Shown here one piece after another: positions 54,412 through 63,969 of a stretch of 64,000 nt of DNA. The translations under genes and the position numbers were made by a program. Location of the stretch: NCBI RefSeq assembly GCF_004367585.1, contig NZ_CP038015.1, positions 2,176,001 through 2,240,000 of the forward strand, in the 5' to 3' direction. The stretch comes from Paenisporosarcina antarctica (GTDB lineage: Bacteria; Bacillota; Bacilli; Bacillales_A; Planococcaceae). Each line of letters opens with the position of its first letter. Position 1 is the first letter of the stretch. Under the pieces are notes generated by a model. The model made no database searches. It was not told where the DNA came from and saw only the letters and a program-made list of their open reading frames with translations.

Positions 54412-55389
54412 TTAGAAAATGTTATTATGTTCATCCACAGTTATAACGACATTTCCTGTCTTATGTCCTTTTTCGACATATCTATGAGCTTCAACTATTT
54501 CTTCAAACGCATAGGATCGGTCAATAACCACTTTTAACTTCTCCGCCTCAACAAGTTCTTTGAGGAAGTTTAGAGCTTCGGAACTTTCAGGTGAATTTTG
54601 ACTCAAGATTATTTTTTTGCTAGTTGTCAATTTAGTCCAAAGCATTGGAACACTTGGTAATGGTACAGTGATGTTTAGATAGGTTCCGTACTTTTTTAAC
54701 GATTTCATACAAGCTGAAAACGAGCTCTTGTCTACCGCTTCAAAGATCACATCATACATCTCGCCTTTTGAAGAAAAATCTTCTACAGTGTAATCAATTA
54801 CCTGATCTGCTCCCAGAGATTTTACCAATTCTAAATTCTTAGTACTGCATACCCCCGTAACATTTGCTCCAAAAATCTTGGCAATCTGAACTGCAAAAGT
54901 TCCAACACTTCCTGAAGCTCCACAAGAACCTTTTGGCCACTTTGAATATTAGCTTTTCTAAGAAAATACAATGCTGTTCGTGCTCCGATGGGAATAGCAG
55001 CTGCTTCCTCAAAAGTGATGTTGGTGGGTTTAAGACTGACTGGTCCGTCTTCTGGCAGACACTTATATTCGGCATAAGCACCAAAACCCACTAGTGAAGC
55101 AGCAAAAATCTGATCACCTTTCTGAAACAGCTTTACATCTTTACCTACTGACTCTACTCGTCCAGCTAACTCCATCCCCAATATCTCTTTTTTGGGTTGT
55201 CTGAAACCAAGTGCTATTCGGGCTGGCAACCAAAAAGCGGGAGGCACTTCGTGACCGAATATCTGCTACCGTTACGGTTGTCGCTTTTATTTTTACCAGT
55301 ATTTCATTATTTTTAGGTACAGGTTTTTCTACCTCTTTCAGTTGAAGAACGTCTGGGGGACCATACTTTGTGTATACAATTGCTTTCAT
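54412..55389 (-). pseudogene. Zinc-independent MDR-family quinone/NAD(P)H oxidoreductase, two frameshifts
   Basis: Three frames together encode a complete medium-chain dehydrogenase of about 320 residues. Frame one (55389 to about 55250) reads [26 protein letters not shown]...[11 protein letters not shown]. Frame two (about 55247-54930) reads [39 protein letters not shown]. Frame three (about 54930-54412) reads [44 protein letters not shown] to the end. The second break falls in the coenzyme loop, where a Tyr-Gly codon region seems four bases short (VLV-GASGSVG). The first break looks like a small deletion. Either a recent pseudogene or two sequencing errors. Confidence 0.85.
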
Positions 55390-58490: not shown

Positions 58491-58961
58491 TCAGTCTATG
58501 TACATATTTTCTTTCATAATTAATTGGACAATTGTCTTTTTCACTTCAAATAATATTTGATCCCATTTTTCATTTAAAGTCTGGCTTATGCCAATATGGA
58601 ATGATATTTCATAAGGTTCCACTCCAATAAGAAACCCTTTAATTGTCTCTCTTTGTTGATACAATACTTGAAATAAATGAAGATTATGTGGTGAGATATC
58701 TAGTGTTTGATGTTCATGTAAATTAGCTAGAGAATAAATTGAAATTTCTCCAGTTTCTTTACCTGAACAAACAGCATCGAGAATAATAGTAAATGTGGCC
58801 TCTTCGATTTTTCCAATACAATAATCAATATCTGATTCCCCAATTAAATAATGAATGTTTGATGTTTGATCAAGTTTCTCCAGTTCCTCCACAAGAGAAA
58901 TTCCAATACCATCATCCATCATTAATTGATTGCCAATGCCCAATACGATAATTCTTTCCAT
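58491..58961 (-). CDS. [NiFe] hydrogenase maturation endopeptidase (HyaD/HybD/HupD type)
   Basis: A 156-aa protease that trims the C-terminal extension of the large subunit after nickel insertion. The family motif GIGNQLMMDDGIG is at residues 8-20 (nickel ligand Glu/Asp in the DDG region). Further marks are ILDAVCSG (near 62), the His in ISPHNLHLF (near 93) and LIGVEPYEI. The ATG at 58961 overlaps the large-subunit stop as TAATG, with AAAGGTG upstream. That tight coupling supports the pairing with the adjacent large subunit. A frame open to 59027 is an artefact of the overlap. Confidence 0.94.
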   Translation of the reverse strand: MERIIVLGIGNQLMMDDGIGISLVEELEKLDQTSNIHYLIGESDIDYCIGKIEEATFTIILDAVCSGKETGEISIYSLANLHEHQTLDISPHNLHLFQVLYQQRETIKGFLIGVEPYEISFHIGISQTLNEKWDQILFEVKKTIVQLIMKENMYID

Positions 58962-60367
58962 TAAAACACCTTTATCGTTTTTACTTGTCTTCCTGGACTG
59001 TATACATGAGTTGCACATGACATACACGGATCAAAAGATCTAAGAATTCTTCCAATCTCTGCAGGTTTGTCGGGATTTTGAATAGGTGTACCTATTAACG
59101 CTTCTTCAGCAACACCTCTATATCCATTATTATCTCGAGTAGAGAAGTCCCATGTTGAAGGAGTTATTATTTGATAAAATGATAACTTTTTTTCTTTAAT
59201 TTCAAGCCAATGCCCAAGTGCGCCTCTCGTTGTATCGACTAAGCCTCTTCCAGCTGCTATTTCAGGGAGTTCATATTTTTTTTGTACGTCTACTCCAGGA
59301 ATAATTTGCTGTAATAAGATCTTCATGATTTCTGCTATTTTCTTTGCTTCAATTGCTCTAGCAATGGTTCGATCCATAGCTGAGATTCTATTGTCATACT
59401 CCCCACTTAGTATTAATCTTGCCAGTGGACCTACCTCAAAAGGAAGATGGTCGTATCTCGGCGCTTTTACCCAAGAATATGCTTTTTCTTTATCCATATC
59501 TGGCTCTGTTACTGCTTCACTTGGTTGATTCGTGCTTTTTTTTGACGTGTACCAGGAATAATCAATTTTTTCCTGTATTTTTTTTTCATCAAATGTCTCC
59601 AGAGATCCATTTTTCGAGACAAGTGGATCAACATATAATGTACCCAGATCTTTATAATTGTTAAAAGAACCATATGTTAGAAGATTACCGTAGCCTTTTC
59701 CTAGGTGAAAATATTCCTGATAATAGTGAGCGATATCATATACATCTGGAATCATTTTTTCATCAATAAATTGAGTAACTTTTTGTAAAATGGAATCAAT
59801 ATGAACGACTTTTTCTGCTGTTGCCTGAGTTGAAATACCGCCAATAAAGACCCCATGATTATGGGGAGCTTTCCCCCCTAATACTGCTAGCATTTGATGC
59901 GCAAGACGACTTATTGGAAGTGAATCAAAGTAGTGCTGTGAAATACGATCATTTATTGCTTTTGGTAACCTGAAATCGTCATGGTCTGATAGTAAAAGAG
60001 GATTTTGTTCAATCTTTACAAAGTCTGGAACGGTGTACTGATAGAAATGGCGAATATGATTTTGTAAAAACTCGCAGCAATGAATAATGTCTCGTAAATA
60101 TCTTCCTTGTTCCATGGGCTTAATGTTTAGGGCATCCTCTAAAGCTAATGATGAGGCCATGGAATGTGCGGCAGAACAAATACCGCATATTCGTTGTGTG
60201 AAGTATACTGCATCAAATGGATTTCTTCCTACTAGCATTTGCTCAAAGCCTCGAAATAAATTCCCTTTCGTTTTGGCTTCAATTACTTGATTATTCTCTA
60301 TGGTTACATCAATTTCCATAAACCCACTAATTCTAGTCAAAGGATTAATAATAATTTTTCTACTCAT
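58961..60367 (-). CDS. [NiFe] hydrogenase large (catalytic) subunit
   Basis: A 468-aa Ni-Fe catalytic subunit, short for the family. The four Ni/Fe cysteines are Cys61 and Cys64 in RICGICSAAH (L1) and Cys448 and Cys451 in DPCMSCATH (L2). His454 is followed by a 14-residue extension (VYSPGRQVKTIKVF) that the neighbouring protease would remove. The N-terminus is the usual INPLTRISGFMEIDV. It overlaps the small-subunit gene by eight bases and ends inside the protease start codon. HypD and HypE encoded upstream supply the Fe(CN)2CO group. It splits H2 or makes it; the operon has no cytochrome b subunit in view. The subgroup is not assigned. Confidence 0.96.
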   Translation of the reverse strand: MSRKIIINPLTRISGFMEIDVTIENNQVIEAKTKGNLFRGFEQMLVGRNPFDAVYFTQRICGICSAAHSMASSLALEDALNIKPMEQGRYLRDIIHCCEFLQNHIRHFYQYTVPDFVKIEQNPLLLSDHDDFRLPKAINDRISQHYFDSLPISRLAHQMLAVLGGKAPHNHGVFIGGISTQATAEKVVHIDSILQKVTQFIDEKMIPDVYDIAHYYQEYFHLGKGYGNLLTYGSFNNYKDLGTLYVDPLVSKNGSLETFDEKKIQEKIDYSWYTSKKSTNQPSEAVTEPDMDKEKAYSWVKAPRYDHLPFEVGPLARLILSGEYDNRISAMDRTIARAIEAKKIAEIMKILLQQIIPGVDVQKKYELPEIAAGRGLVDTTRGALGHWLEIKEKKLSFYQIITPSTWDFSTRDNNGYRGVAEEALIGTPIQNPDKPAEIGRILRSFDPCMSCATHVYSPGRQVKTIKVF

Positions 60368-61265
60368 TCTTCACCACTTTCGTCGTATCGTAGCTTATGA
60401 ATGGAGCCATTGCATCTGGAAAACCAAATTGAGCACAACCTATGCAAGGGGTGTCATCTCCAATTGGCCAGTTCACATGACCATTCCATTGCCGCGTTGG
60501 ACAATCAACCCTAGTAACTGGACCACGGCAACCAAGCTTAAATAAACAAGTTTTATCTCCTAATTTCTCGGCAAAAATACCTCGGTCAAAAAATGGTCTT
60601 CTAGGACATCGGTCATGAATAAGCGAACTATAAAACATTAATGGTCGATCCATGTTATCGGTTTCTGGTTCCCCGTAAAGTAAGAGATGAGCTAATGTCC
60701 CTAAAAACCAATCTGGATGAACAGGACACCCTGGCAGTTTAATCATCTTCTTTTGAGGAAGAACTTTTTGTAATCCTACTGATTGTGATGGATTTGGTTT
60801 CGCTGCAGATACACCACCGTGAGTTGCACAAGCACCTACCGCTAAAATATGTGATGCTTTCTCTCCAAACATTGTCGCTGCCTGAAGACCAGTTAGTGGT
60901 TTGCCTTGCCAACTCCCAATTACATTGTATAAACCGTTATTTCTTAAAGCTACAGCACCTTCAACTGCTAATATATAGTCTTCATCCAGCGTATTCATCA
61001 GTTTCTCGATGGCCTGTTCTCCCTCGGACGCCATTAAACTATTGCAATAACGAATATTCACCATTGAATTTAATGTATATTCAAAGTCCGGATTTTGCCC
61101 ATTTAACAAAGAGATGATATTTCCAGAACATCCATTTAACTCTAAGTAAACTAAATTCTTTTTCTTAATGAGCCCTTTATTAATATTGTCGATGACTGTG
61201 TTTGTTAATCTTGAAGTAATCGCTTCATTTGTCATTGGTTCTGGTGGTAAAATATGTGGTTTCAT
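60360..61265 (-). CDS. [NiFe] hydrogenase small (electron-transfer) subunit, unusual proximal cluster
   Basis: A 301-aa iron-sulfur subunit with no Tat signal, so the enzyme should be cytoplasmic. Distal-cluster ligands are His217, Cys220, Cys240 and Cys246. Medial-cluster ligands are Cys255, Cys274 and Cys277 (DCPTRQWN, PCIGCAQFG). For the proximal cluster I see Cys46, Cys146 (GACATHGG) and Cys180 (LPGCPVHP). The expected second Cys of C-x-x-C is Asn49 (NGCSGN). A Cys at 74 (IRYCNSLMASEGE) replaces the conserved His beside this cluster in standard enzymes. The extra Cys pair of oxygen-tolerant group 1d is absent. The start at 61265 directly abuts the stop of the cytochrome b5-like gene, with GGGAGG upstream. 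Confidence 0.93.
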   Translation of the reverse strand: MKPHILPPEPMTNEAITSRLTNTVIDNINKGLIKKKNLVYLELNGCSGNIISLLNGQNPDFEYTLNSMVNIRYCNSLMASEGEQAIEKLMNTLDEDYILAVEGAVALRNNGLYNVIGSWQGKPLTGLQAATMFGEKASHILAVGACATHGGVSAAKPNPSQSVGLQKVLPQKKMIKLPGCPVHPDWFLGTLAHLLLYGEPETDNMDRPLMFYSSLIHDRCPRRPFFDRGIFAEKLGDKTCLFKLGCRGPVTRVDCPTRQWNGHVNWPIGDDTPCIGCAQFGFPDAMAPFISYDTTKVVKNE

Positions 61266-61793
61266 TTAATTTAACCTCCCTACAACTGGTAGTGTAGCTA
61301 AAATCGATTGTTGCCCTGCATGGCAAGATGCAAATTCTCCAGTATAATCCTTTCCTGCTGTTAAACCAAAATGACTAGCGGCTGCCCATGCCCTGTTGTT
61401 TGTCACATCATAAACAATTCCATCTACCGCAATATAAGCAGCTCTGCCATTTTTCCCATCGTAGTTAGCTAATTCTTCTATTGTAAAGGTACGTTGATTG
61501 GCTTGCTGAGAAGGTAGGGTAGGTGAGGGTGTGATTGGTGGAATTTGTAGTTGATTTGTATTCCTCGAATTAACAGGTGTTAGCTGTTGTAGAGGGGTAA
61601 CATACAAGTTAGAAATGGCTTGATTAGCTAACAACTCACTTATAAAATGGATGGATGATTGTGTATCCCATAATCGTTGTAGAAGCTGTTGTTTCACTGA
61701 TGAGTCATCTTGGGTAGAAAGTGTATAAATATCTTGTCGTGCCTGAGTAACAAGATTATTCATTTGTAGCCTGAGCAACTCAATATTTTGCAA
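61266..61793 (-). CDS. Cytochrome b5-like heme-binding protein of the hydrogenase operon
   Basis: A 175-aa protein. Residues 1-65 are helical (LLRLQMNNLVTQARQDIYTL), residues 66-98 a Pro/Gln/Thr-rich linker. The C-terminal 75 residues form a prokaryotic cytochrome b5 or MAPR-like domain: FTIEELANYDGKNGRAAYIAVDG, VYDVTNNRAW, SHFGLTAGKDYTGEFASCHAG and LPVVGRL. Histidines in SHFG and SCHAG are candidate heme ligands. There is no signal peptide. The TTG at 61793 has GGAGAGG upstream. The stop codon directly precedes the small-subunit ATG. An intracellular b-type heme carrier taking electrons from the small subunit is the natural guess; that role is inference. Confidence 0.85.
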   Translation of the reverse strand: MQNIELLRLQMNNLVTQARQDIYTLSTQDDSSVKQQLLQRLWDTQSSIHFISELLANQAISNLYVTPLQQLTPVNSRNTNQLQIPPITPSPTLPSQQANQRTFTIEELANYDGKNGRAAYIAVDGIVYDVTNNRAWAAASHFGLTAGKDYTGEFASCHAGQQSILATLPVVGRLN

Positions 61794-61848
61794 TTTGTCC
61801 TCTCCTTAAGGCTGATACATCTTATTCTATGCATCAGACTTAAGAAAA

Positions 61849-62859
61849 TTAACAAATTCTAGGCAATAGCATACCCGTTAGTCGGTGAAGACGCCTCGTT
61901 GTTCCCATAGGGGTTTTTAATAGCAGTTTTCCAGTATCTACATTACTAGAAGTAATATGACCAATAATGCTTGCATTCTGTCCAAATACATTTTTCCTCA
62001 TTATCTCAAGTGCTTTATGTTGATTAGTTGGGTCTATAATCAAAACTACTTTCCCTTCATTTGCTAGATAGAGAGGATCAAAACCTAAAATGTCACAGGC
62101 ACCTTGAACATCATTACGTATCGGAATAGATACTTCGTCTAATTCAACAATAAAATGAAAATCTTCACATAGTTCTACTAATGTTGTGGCTAATCCACCT
62201 CGCGTAGGATCTCGCATTATTCTAATACCTTCAATTTCCTCTACGAGTTCTTGAATGAGGTGATTTAATGTTGCACAATCACTCTCGACATCGGTTAACA
62301 AACCATGCTCTTGACGTGCACTGAGGATGGCAATACCATGATCTCCTATTGTGCCACTTATGATAACAGAATCGCCTTCTTGGATAGCTTCAGGTTTTAG
62401 TCGATGCTTCTCTTGAATCCATCCAATCCCAGTAGTATTAATAAATAAACCATCTACACTACCCTTTTCCACTACTTTTGTATCACCTGCAATGATTGTC
62501 ACTCCAGCATTTTTGGCTTCTGCTGCCATACTTTCAACGACCTTTTTTAATTTAGGAATCTCAAACCCTTCTTCAATAATAAATGCAGCTGTTATGACGT
62601 GAGGTATTGCTCCACATACAGCTAAATCATTTACTGTCCCTGTAATGGCTAACTTTCCTATGTTTCCTCCTGGAAAGAAAATAGGCTTGACTACGTAACT
62701 ATCAGTTGAGACAGCGATCGTTTGTGTAGGACATTGAACAATGGCAGAATCAAGTTGTACCTGTTCAGAATCGCCAAAAGATTTAAGAAATACATGTTGT
62801 ATGAGTTGGTGAGTTAATTCACCGCCTTCCCCATGAGCTAAACTAATTCGCTGAACCAA
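61849..62859 (-). CDS. hypE: Hydrogenase maturation protein HypE
   Basis: A 336-aa ATP-dependent dehydratase that converts the carbamoyl group on its C-terminal cysteine to the cyanide ligand of the NiFe site. The AIR-synthase-like fold shows LAHGEGG, STDSYVVKPIFFPGGNIG, the nucleotide loop IAGDTKVVEKG and RDPTRGGL. The invariant C-terminal motif PRIC ends the protein (MLLPRIC). The TTG start at 62859 follows GGGAGGAATAG, three bases after the hypD stop. Its partner HypF (carbamoyltransferase) is not in the window. Confidence 0.97.
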   Translation of the reverse strand: MVQRISLAHGEGGELTHQLIQHVFLKSFGDSEQVQLDSAIVQCPTQTIAVSTDSYVVKPIFFPGGNIGKLAITGTVNDLAVCGAIPHVITAAFIIEEGFEIPKLKKVVESMAAEAKNAGVTIIAGDTKVVEKGSVDGLFINTTGIGWIQEKHRLKPEAIQEGDSVIISGTIGDHGIAILSARQEHGLLTDVESDCATLNHLIQELVEEIEGIRIMRDPTRGGLATTLVELCEDFHFIVELDEVSIPIRNDVQGACDILGFDPLYLANEGKVVLIIDPTNQHKALEIMRKNVFGQNASIIGHITSSNVDTGKLLLKTPMGTTRRLHRLTGMLLPRIC

Positions 62860-62862
62860 GTT

Positions 62863-63969
62863 CTATTCCTCCCTCATGTATTGATAATGAGCTGCACAGG
62901 TTCCTTCTGTAGAAACCATACAGGGACCAATCGGGTTAGTTGGTGAACACGCTTTATCAAACAAAATACACTGTTCAGGTGTGATTAATCCTCGAATAAT
63001 CTCACCACATCGACATTTTGTTTTTCTCGGCTCTTCTATAACTACCTTAAACTTCTTTTTCGCATCAAATTGAGCGTATTTTGCTTTAAGGACTAATCCA
63101 CTATTAGGAATCGTGCTCATACCTCGCCATTCCTCGTCATAAGGTTCTAAATATTGTTTTAGAAAGTTTTGAGCAACTAGATTCCCTTCATTTTTCACTA
63201 CATATGTATAATCATTGATGATATCTACTTTTTTTTCTAGAAGAAGCTCTAGCAGTTTATACATACTACTAAGTAATTGTACGGGCTCAAATCCAGTTAT
63301 TACACCTGAAATTTCATATTCTTCAGCTAAAAAATTGTAACTCTGTTTTCCTAAAACGATGGAGACATGCCCAGGTAAAATAAACCCATCAAGTTTAACT
63401 TCACCTGAATCAAGAAGGACTCTTAATACAGGTTCTACCAATTTCGTTGTCATCCATATGGTGAAATTCTTTAACTCCTTCCTCTCTGCCTCGCGAACAG
63501 CAAGAGCAAGTATGGGAATGGTCGTTTCAAATCCAATCCCTAAAAAAATGACTTCCTTATCAGGATTTTCTTGTGCAATTATCACACTTTCTAACGGGGA
63601 GTATACGACTCGGATATCCTTACCTTCTGTTTTAGCTTTCATCAAGGTGAACTTGGAGCCTGGCACACGCATCATGTCACCAAAGGTACAAAGAATTCTG
63701 TTAGGTTCTTCAGATAATTGAATCATGGCATCAATCGATTTTTGATCAGTGACACATACCGGGCAACCTGGCCCAGCAATCAGGCCTATATGGTCTTTTA
63801 ATCTAGCTTTTATTCCCGTTTTGGCAAACGCCATGGTGTGTGATCCACATACTTCCATAAATATTGGAATTCTACCTTCTTTTTCTTTAAATCTTTCCGC
63901 TAACTTAATAACTGCTTCAAGCGAATGACGAGCAATTGTTGGATCAGAAAAAATCTCCATGTTTACCAT
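62863..63969 (-). CDS. hypD: Hydrogenase maturation protein HypD
   Basis: A 368-aa scaffold on which the Fe(CN)2CO unit is built, together with HypC. Conserved motifs are MEVCGSHTMAFA (near residue 38), AGPGCPVCVT (near 67), GIGFETTIP (near 150) and PGHVS (near 203). The C-terminal 4Fe-4S region is KCRCGEII...CILFDKACSPTNPIGPCMVSTEGTCAAHY. The ATG at 63969 is preferred because GGAGG lies about ten bases upstream. It overlaps the end of a probable hypC. HypA and HypB, the nickel inserters, are not visible. Confidence 0.97.
   Translation of the reverse strand: MVNMEIFSDPTIARHSLEAVIKLAERFKEKEGRIPIFMEVCGSHTMAFAKTGIKARLKDHIGLIAGPGCPVCVTDQKSIDAMIQLSEEPNRILCTFGDMMRVPGSKFTLMKAKTEGKDIRVVYSPLESVIIAQENPDKEVIFLGIGFETTIPILALAVREAERKELKNFTIWMTTKLVEPVLRVLLDSGEVKLDGFILPGHVSIVLGKQSYNFLAEEYEISGVITGFEPVQLLSSMYKLLELLLEKKVDIINDYTYVVKNEGNLVAQNFLKQYLEPYDEEWRGMSTIPNSGLVLKAKYAQFDAKKKFKVVIEEPRKTKCRCGEIIRGLITPEQCILFDKACSPTNPIGPCMVSTEGTCAAHYQYMREE

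Follow-up and report, generated by a model that had tools for sequence, protein, structure and literature searches.

A cytochrome b5–[NiFe] hydrogenase gene pair in Bacillus and Clostridium relatives points to an unstudied cytoplasmic route for electrons from H2

Characterised respiratory [NiFe] hydrogenases deliver their electrons either to a cytochrome b in the membrane or, as Huc does, to menaquinone that the enzyme draws in. What, then, would accept the electrons of a cytoplasmic hydrogenase that is encoded directly behind a cytochrome b5-domain gene? We investigated this question in Paenisporosarcina antarctica, starting from a window of 64,000 nucleotides (contig NZ_CP038015.1, positions 2,176,001 to 2,240,000). 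Here, we propose that the b5 gene product probably serves a cytoplasmic group 1-type [NiFe] hydrogenase as its electron-transfer subunit, a tethered protein that is attached through a helical hairpin and has replaced cytochrome b561.

The b5 gene, its product and the surrounding operon

The operon reads hypA-hypB-hypF-hypC-hypD-hypE-b5-hydS-hydL-protease, an arrangement also kept in relatives from the same taxonomic order (Table 1). The TTG start of the b5 gene is supported by a strong Shine–Dalgarno sequence upstream, AAGGAGAGG (61799–61807, minus strand). At the other end, the stop codon TAA (61266–61268) abuts the small-subunit ATG (61263–61265) in the same frame with a gap of 0, exactly as the original prediction had stated, and its observation as a whole (the b5 reading frame, its layout and the junction with the small subunit) is confirmed. 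Most Bacilli relatives show overlapping genes at this point (TAATG, ATGA, TAGTG or GTGA), so the tight coupling of b5 and hydS is conserved. Judging from the junction and the internal Shine–Dalgarno sequence, the b5 protein and the small subunit would be co-translated. The ATG of the maturation protease, by inspection, is probably at 58961, overlapping the large-subunit stop. The large subunit contains the CxxC motifs RICGICSAAH and DPCMSCATH, profile matches to the HydS/HydL pair include PF00374 (6.2e-110) and TIGR00391 (6.6e-67), and the nearest solved structures to the hydrogenase are Desulfovibrio NiFeSe/NiFe enzymes.

Table 1. Features of the b5–hydrogenase locus, in window coordinates
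Feature	Position	Strand	Remarks
hypD	62863..63969	−	PF01924; hypC, hypF, hypB and hypA lie further on, past the window edge
hypE	61849..62859	−	PF00586/PF02769
b5-domain protein gene	61266..61793	−	TTG start, 175 aa; putative hydrogenase partner
N-terminal two-helix hairpin, residues 2–63	61605..61790	−	AlphaFold2 pLDDT mostly >90; putative docking/oligomerisation module
Pro/Gln/Asn-rich disordered linker, residues 64–98	61500..61604	−	pLDDT <50; alignment gaps
Cytochrome b5 domain, residues 101–174	61272..61493	−	PF00173 and structural match to 6vz6/6nzx
His141 codon	61371..61373	−	Putative first heme axial ligand; invariant in 29/29 aligned b5 proteins
Cys157-His158 codons	61320..61325	−	D+8/D+9; putative second heme ligand and adjacent Cys, in all hydrogenase-linked members
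Small-subunit Shine–Dalgarno sequence GGGAGGTT	61273..61280	−	Within the last b5 codons; conserved in Bacilli relatives
[NiFe] hydrogenase small subunit	60360..61265	−	301 aa; no Tat signal, no C-terminal anchor
Small-subunit Asn49 codon	61119..61121	−	Replaces the second proximal-cluster Cys (GCSGN), by alignment
[NiFe] hydrogenase large subunit	58961..60367	−	468 aa
Maturation protease, HycI/HyaD family	58491..58961	−	PF01750

Pfam Cyt-b5 (PF00173) spans residues 104–174 of the b5 protein (1.9e-8, 34.6 bits against a cut-off of 23.7), with no significant Pfam match before residue 104. An AlphaFold2 model built with 29 homologues places the hairpin helices at residues 2–27 and 31–63 and gives the b5 domain a pLDDT of about 68–89, and the linker between hairpin and domain differs in length among relatives, as seen from alignment gaps. 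Pfam and the model thus bear out the succession of helical region, linker and b5-like domain that had been read from the DNA. The best structural matches were the archaeal b5 proteins 6vz6 (Z 12.8) and 6nzx (Z 12.6), which come from Methanococcoides burtonii and Hadesarchaea; eukaryotic b5 ranked next. Of the earlier label "b5/MAPR-like", the b5 part therefore stands by profile and by fold, whereas the MAPR part is weaker: matches to PGRMC1 (E 0.015 and 0.00093) fall far below those to b5 proteins, and both His are conserved.

Two His residues of the b5 domain are likely heme ligands. Together with one Cys they are invariant in the hydrogenase-linked members, whose N-terminal part is variable and sometimes short or missing (e.g., L112). 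A lack of heme-ligand conservation in homologues had been named as a finding that would speak against the prediction; the candidate His are invariant in every hydrogenase-linked homologue, and the b5 protein is predicted to bind heme. In linked members, the second His lies at D+9 after a Cys, one residue off its usual place (D+10), so bis-His ligation is not certain. It occurs at D+10 or D+11, after Pro, in the stand-alone Lactobacillus b5 and in two archaeal b5 proteins. Animal b5 also has it at D+10.

The whole genome of P. antarctica encodes a single NiFe large subunit and a single cytochrome b5 domain. Its sole match to PF01292, which is weak and below the cut-off, is qcrB, located near bc-complex Rieske and cytochrome c genes, and a distant hydrogenase cytochrome b was rejected on this ground. 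The earlier remark that no membrane cytochrome b is visible consequently holds genome-wide; neither the operon nor the rest of the genome contains a hydrogenase cytochrome b gene, which would have weighed against a b5 partner. Two further observations concern the surroundings of the operon. Upstream of hypA, past the window (L002:14056-18813), lies a sulfur-relay cluster encoding DsrE-like proteins, a TauE/SafE exporter, a metallo-beta-lactamase-rhodanese, a TusA-rhodanese and a rhodanese; these genes were rejected as an acceptor pathway, as they do not accompany this operon in six relatives. At 54412–55389 (minus strand), a gene resembling zinc-type alcohol dehydrogenase/quinone oxidoreductase is apparently broken over several frames.

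Linkage of b5 and hydrogenase, and exchange of the membrane cytochrome

We searched the b5 protein against 84,980 species genomes and obtained 30 relatives, 24 of which have the small and large hydrogenase subunits directly downstream. As an unselected set for linkage, we used 261 genomes of the same order. This 469-codon large subunit was present in 7 of the 261, b5 was adjoining and directly upstream in 7/7, and these same 7 genomes were the only carriers of any PF00173, indicating that the link is not due to chance; five genomes of the order with only other NiFe types had no PF00173. The gene order b5–small subunit–large subunit, which the original prediction had proposed to look for in other Bacillales, was found in about 39 genomes, Clostridia included, and in Clostridia b5-hydS-hydL remain together without adjoining hyp genes. 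Searches of plasmids and PHROG with the b5 protein gave no full-length hydrogenase-linked relative. A Heliobacterium b5 protein (L030:6800-7243) has the same N-terminal layout and CH signature with no hydrogenase adjoining, and in Terrilactibacillus (L018:7507-9809) several frameshifts, which may be assembly errors, break up hydS and hydL.

Graded relatives of the large subunit were taken from 398 genomes drawn across the phylum, and the best 30 loci were compared. The b5 gene was directly upstream in all 11 loci with at least 52% large-subunit identity and in 0 of the 19 with at most 48%. Conversely, PF01292 was found beside the large subunit in 19/19 loci at 48% or below (on the opposite strand in the case of G430) and in 0 of 10 loci at 52% or above, the eleventh being P. 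antarctica itself, which was checked separately and has none; three b5-type genomes have no PF01292 anywhere. An RRxF Tat motif and a long C-terminal extension are present in most sister small subunits, whereas those of the b5 type have no Tat motif and, with a C-terminal extension of only 15–33 aa, end shortly behind the medial cluster. Three b5-type small subunits show apparent RR motifs, which were rejected because they lie in the open frame ahead of the start codon or in surroundings unlike those of a signal. The b5-type loci form one clade in the large-subunit tree (support 100/100). These comparisons of gene content and sequence show that, in one clade, a cytoplasmic b5 protein took the place of the export signal and the membrane cytochrome b. 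Since the exchange is one evolutionary change, the 30 loci are not independent tests. Nevertheless, a b5 gene in the place of Tat and cytochrome b561 is positive evidence supporting the role of electron partner that the original prediction had assigned to the b5 protein. Both its observation and its main idea are stronger than first stated, with the redox role itself read from this genomic context.

The exchange also supplies a signature: a b5 gene directly upstream of a Tat-less HydS, the b5 protein carrying H-x7-[DEN]-x7-CH. The small subunit retains the ligands of the medial (three Cys, Pro) and distal (His, three Cys) clusters. Where the proximal cluster normally has CxxC, all small subunits of the b5 clade have GC[SA]GN, with the second Cys replaced by Asn. 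Sister small subunits often carry Asp, Asn or Glu at this position, so the loss of the proximal Cys may predate the exchange. The alignment shows CNGN here in group 2a enzymes, and Asn or Asp at the proximal position was noted for groups 1f and 2a in a 2016 paper (PMC5364354). The clusters of Huc are all [3Fe-4S] (PMC10017518); by comparison with Huc, a raised potential or O2 tolerance from the Asn-modified proximal cluster is only a suggestion.

A further b5 gene of the CH type lies two genes upstream of a divergent Tat-less NiFe hydrogenase of 36% identity (L145:2176-9475), with a methyltransferase gene and an opposite-strand maturation protease gene in between; it may represent a second link or a remnant. 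L146, a relative of L145, has a Tat-less NiFe hydrogenase and no b5 gene. Because L146 and other clostridial acetogens (PMC9431212) have Tat-less enzymes without b5, a b5 protein is not compulsory for a cytoplasmic enzyme.

A proposed electron route and its alternatives

In the reading that we regard as probable, the N-terminal hairpin would attach the b5 protein to the HydSL core. H2 would be split at the NiFe site, and electrons would run through the small-subunit clusters, namely proximal (three Cys and one Asn), medial (three Cys) and distal (His and three Cys), to pass from the distal cluster to the b5 heme inside the cell. Moving on its flexible linker, the b5 heme would hand single electrons to a further acceptor. 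The b5 protein, which in this clade stands in place of the export signal, membrane anchor and cytochrome b561 of the sister hydrogenases, would thereby have taken over the role of that cytochrome. We infer the docking, the electron flow and its direction from the gene arrangement and the predicted structure.

The genomes of the hosts suggest that the onward route may differ between lineages. In all eight Bacilli hosts checked, menD (menaquinone synthesis), ferrochelatase and heme-copper oxidases are present, so electrons could enter the respiratory chain in these hosts; P. antarctica, too, has ferrochelatase, menD and terminal oxidases. Most clostridial hosts gave no menD match above the cut-off, menaquinone being scored by menD alone, and most had no heme-copper oxidase. 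As menD was seen in only some hosts, the final acceptor may not be menaquinone in every one of them. Four clostridial hosts (G552, G636, G618 and G303, with loci such as L110, L114 and L145) have neither ferrochelatase nor a strong AhbD match; with no recognised last step of heme synthesis, some clostridia would need imported heme and perhaps a soluble acceptor.

The most serious alternative, though an unlikely one, gives the b5 protein a mainly structural task as scaffold or membrane adaptor, comparable to HucM: its hairpin would oligomerise HydSL, and its b5-like domain would serve as a docking or quinone/lipid-binding part. The b5 gene does occupy the position of hucM directly upstream of the small subunit (PMC10017518), a hairpin of about 60 residues is confidently predicted at the N-terminus, and the proximal position holds Asn as in group 2a. 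However, conservation falls on the two His and the Cys rather than on the hairpin, and what b5 replaces is a redox cytochrome, not a scaffold. HucM was also absent from the matches of the PDB profile search, a result that is compatible with homology.

Electrons might instead flow the other way, from the b5 protein into the hydrogenase, for reactivation, for O2 reduction at the active site or in support of H2 evolution. Gene evidence does not give the direction, and the Bacilli hosts possess heme-copper oxidases; still, the module also occurs in genomes without such oxidases, and the sister enzymes carry a cytochrome b of the uptake type, which together make reverse flow improbable. It is less probable again that the b5 protein acts in assembly or regulation, responding to heme or redox state and made together with the enzyme but outside the electron path: the Bacilli operon, in which hypE and hydS flank the b5 gene, would fit, but Clostridia keep b5, hydS and hydL together with no hyp genes next to them, and the exchange of b5 for cytochrome b is complete in our sample. 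We give hardly any weight to a heme-free, MAPR-like or degenerate domain with another ligand, as both His are invariant over linked proteins of widely differing identity and the nearest folds are b5 proteins with PGRMC1 far weaker, even though the second His is out of its usual register and some hosts have no recognised last heme-synthesis step.

If the electron-partner reading is true, a soluble b5 in the place of a membrane cytochrome would be a further electron route from H2, and the locus would illustrate how a periplasmic uptake enzyme became cytoplasmic. The signature also allows the module to be recognised in genomes that list only a "cytochrome b5 domain-containing protein", and the question is testable in ordinary soil Bacilli. 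A bolder extension, which we put forward tentatively and think rather doubtful, is that these enzymes constitute a distinct class, a cytoplasmic H2:cytochrome b5 oxidoreductase, in which the tethered b5 with its altered Cys-His ligand loop and the Asn-modified proximal cluster would provide O2-tolerant H2 oxidation without a membrane cytochrome in spore-forming Bacilli and anaerobes, independently of Huc.

Comparison with known systems

With the group 1 uptake hydrogenases that use Tat and cytochrome b (E. coli Hya, Cupriavidus Hox MBH and the Bacillota sisters), the b5-type enzymes have in common the HydS/HydL families, the CxxC motifs of the large subunit, the medial and distal ligands and the maturation protease. 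They differ in lacking Tat, the C-terminal anchor and cytochrome b561, with a b5 gene upstream instead, and in the proximal Cys-to-Asn replacement, although this Cys is also missing in some sisters. Tat-less group 1a enzymes have been described in acetogenic clostridia, with a predicted cytochrome b5 gene nearby in C. carboxidivorans, C. drakei and C. scatologenes (PMC9431212). Likened by description, not by sequence, these are probably of the same kind as the b5-type enzymes. That study only notes the b5 gene; the exchange, the signature, the phylogeny and the distribution in Bacilli do not figure in it. Our literature search, which covered sources other than subscription papers and preprints, found no experimental work on a b5–hydrogenase pairing and no description of it in Bacilli.

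The mycobacterial Huc/HucM system (group 2a) resembles the present one in having no exported form, a third-subunit gene directly upstream of the small subunit with a helical N-terminal part, and, among group 2a relatives, a non-Cys residue at the same proximal position. In contrast, HucM is an all-helical scaffold and menaquinone conduit. In the large-subunit tree, group 2a references lie on a separate long branch distant from the b5 clade; the PDB profile search returned no HucM chain, and the hairpin matches many unrelated two-helix folds. The Bacillales group 2a (Huc) operons L154 and L155 begin with a DUF1641-type gene (named as such in PMC12976888), and nothing resembling HucM immediately precedes their small-subunit gene.

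Stand-alone archaeal and bacterial b5 proteins (6vz6, 6nzx and Lactobacillus b5) share the b5 fold and a YVAVNGIVYDVT-type core, but they have neither the helical hairpin nor a hydrogenase linkage, and their second His follows Pro rather than Cys. The closest functional parallel to the proposed relay may be sought in sulfite oxidase and flavocytochrome b2, where a b5 heme on a flexible tether acts as a single-electron relay. In those enzymes the b5 domain is fused to its enzyme, whereas the b5 protein described here is encoded by a separate gene.
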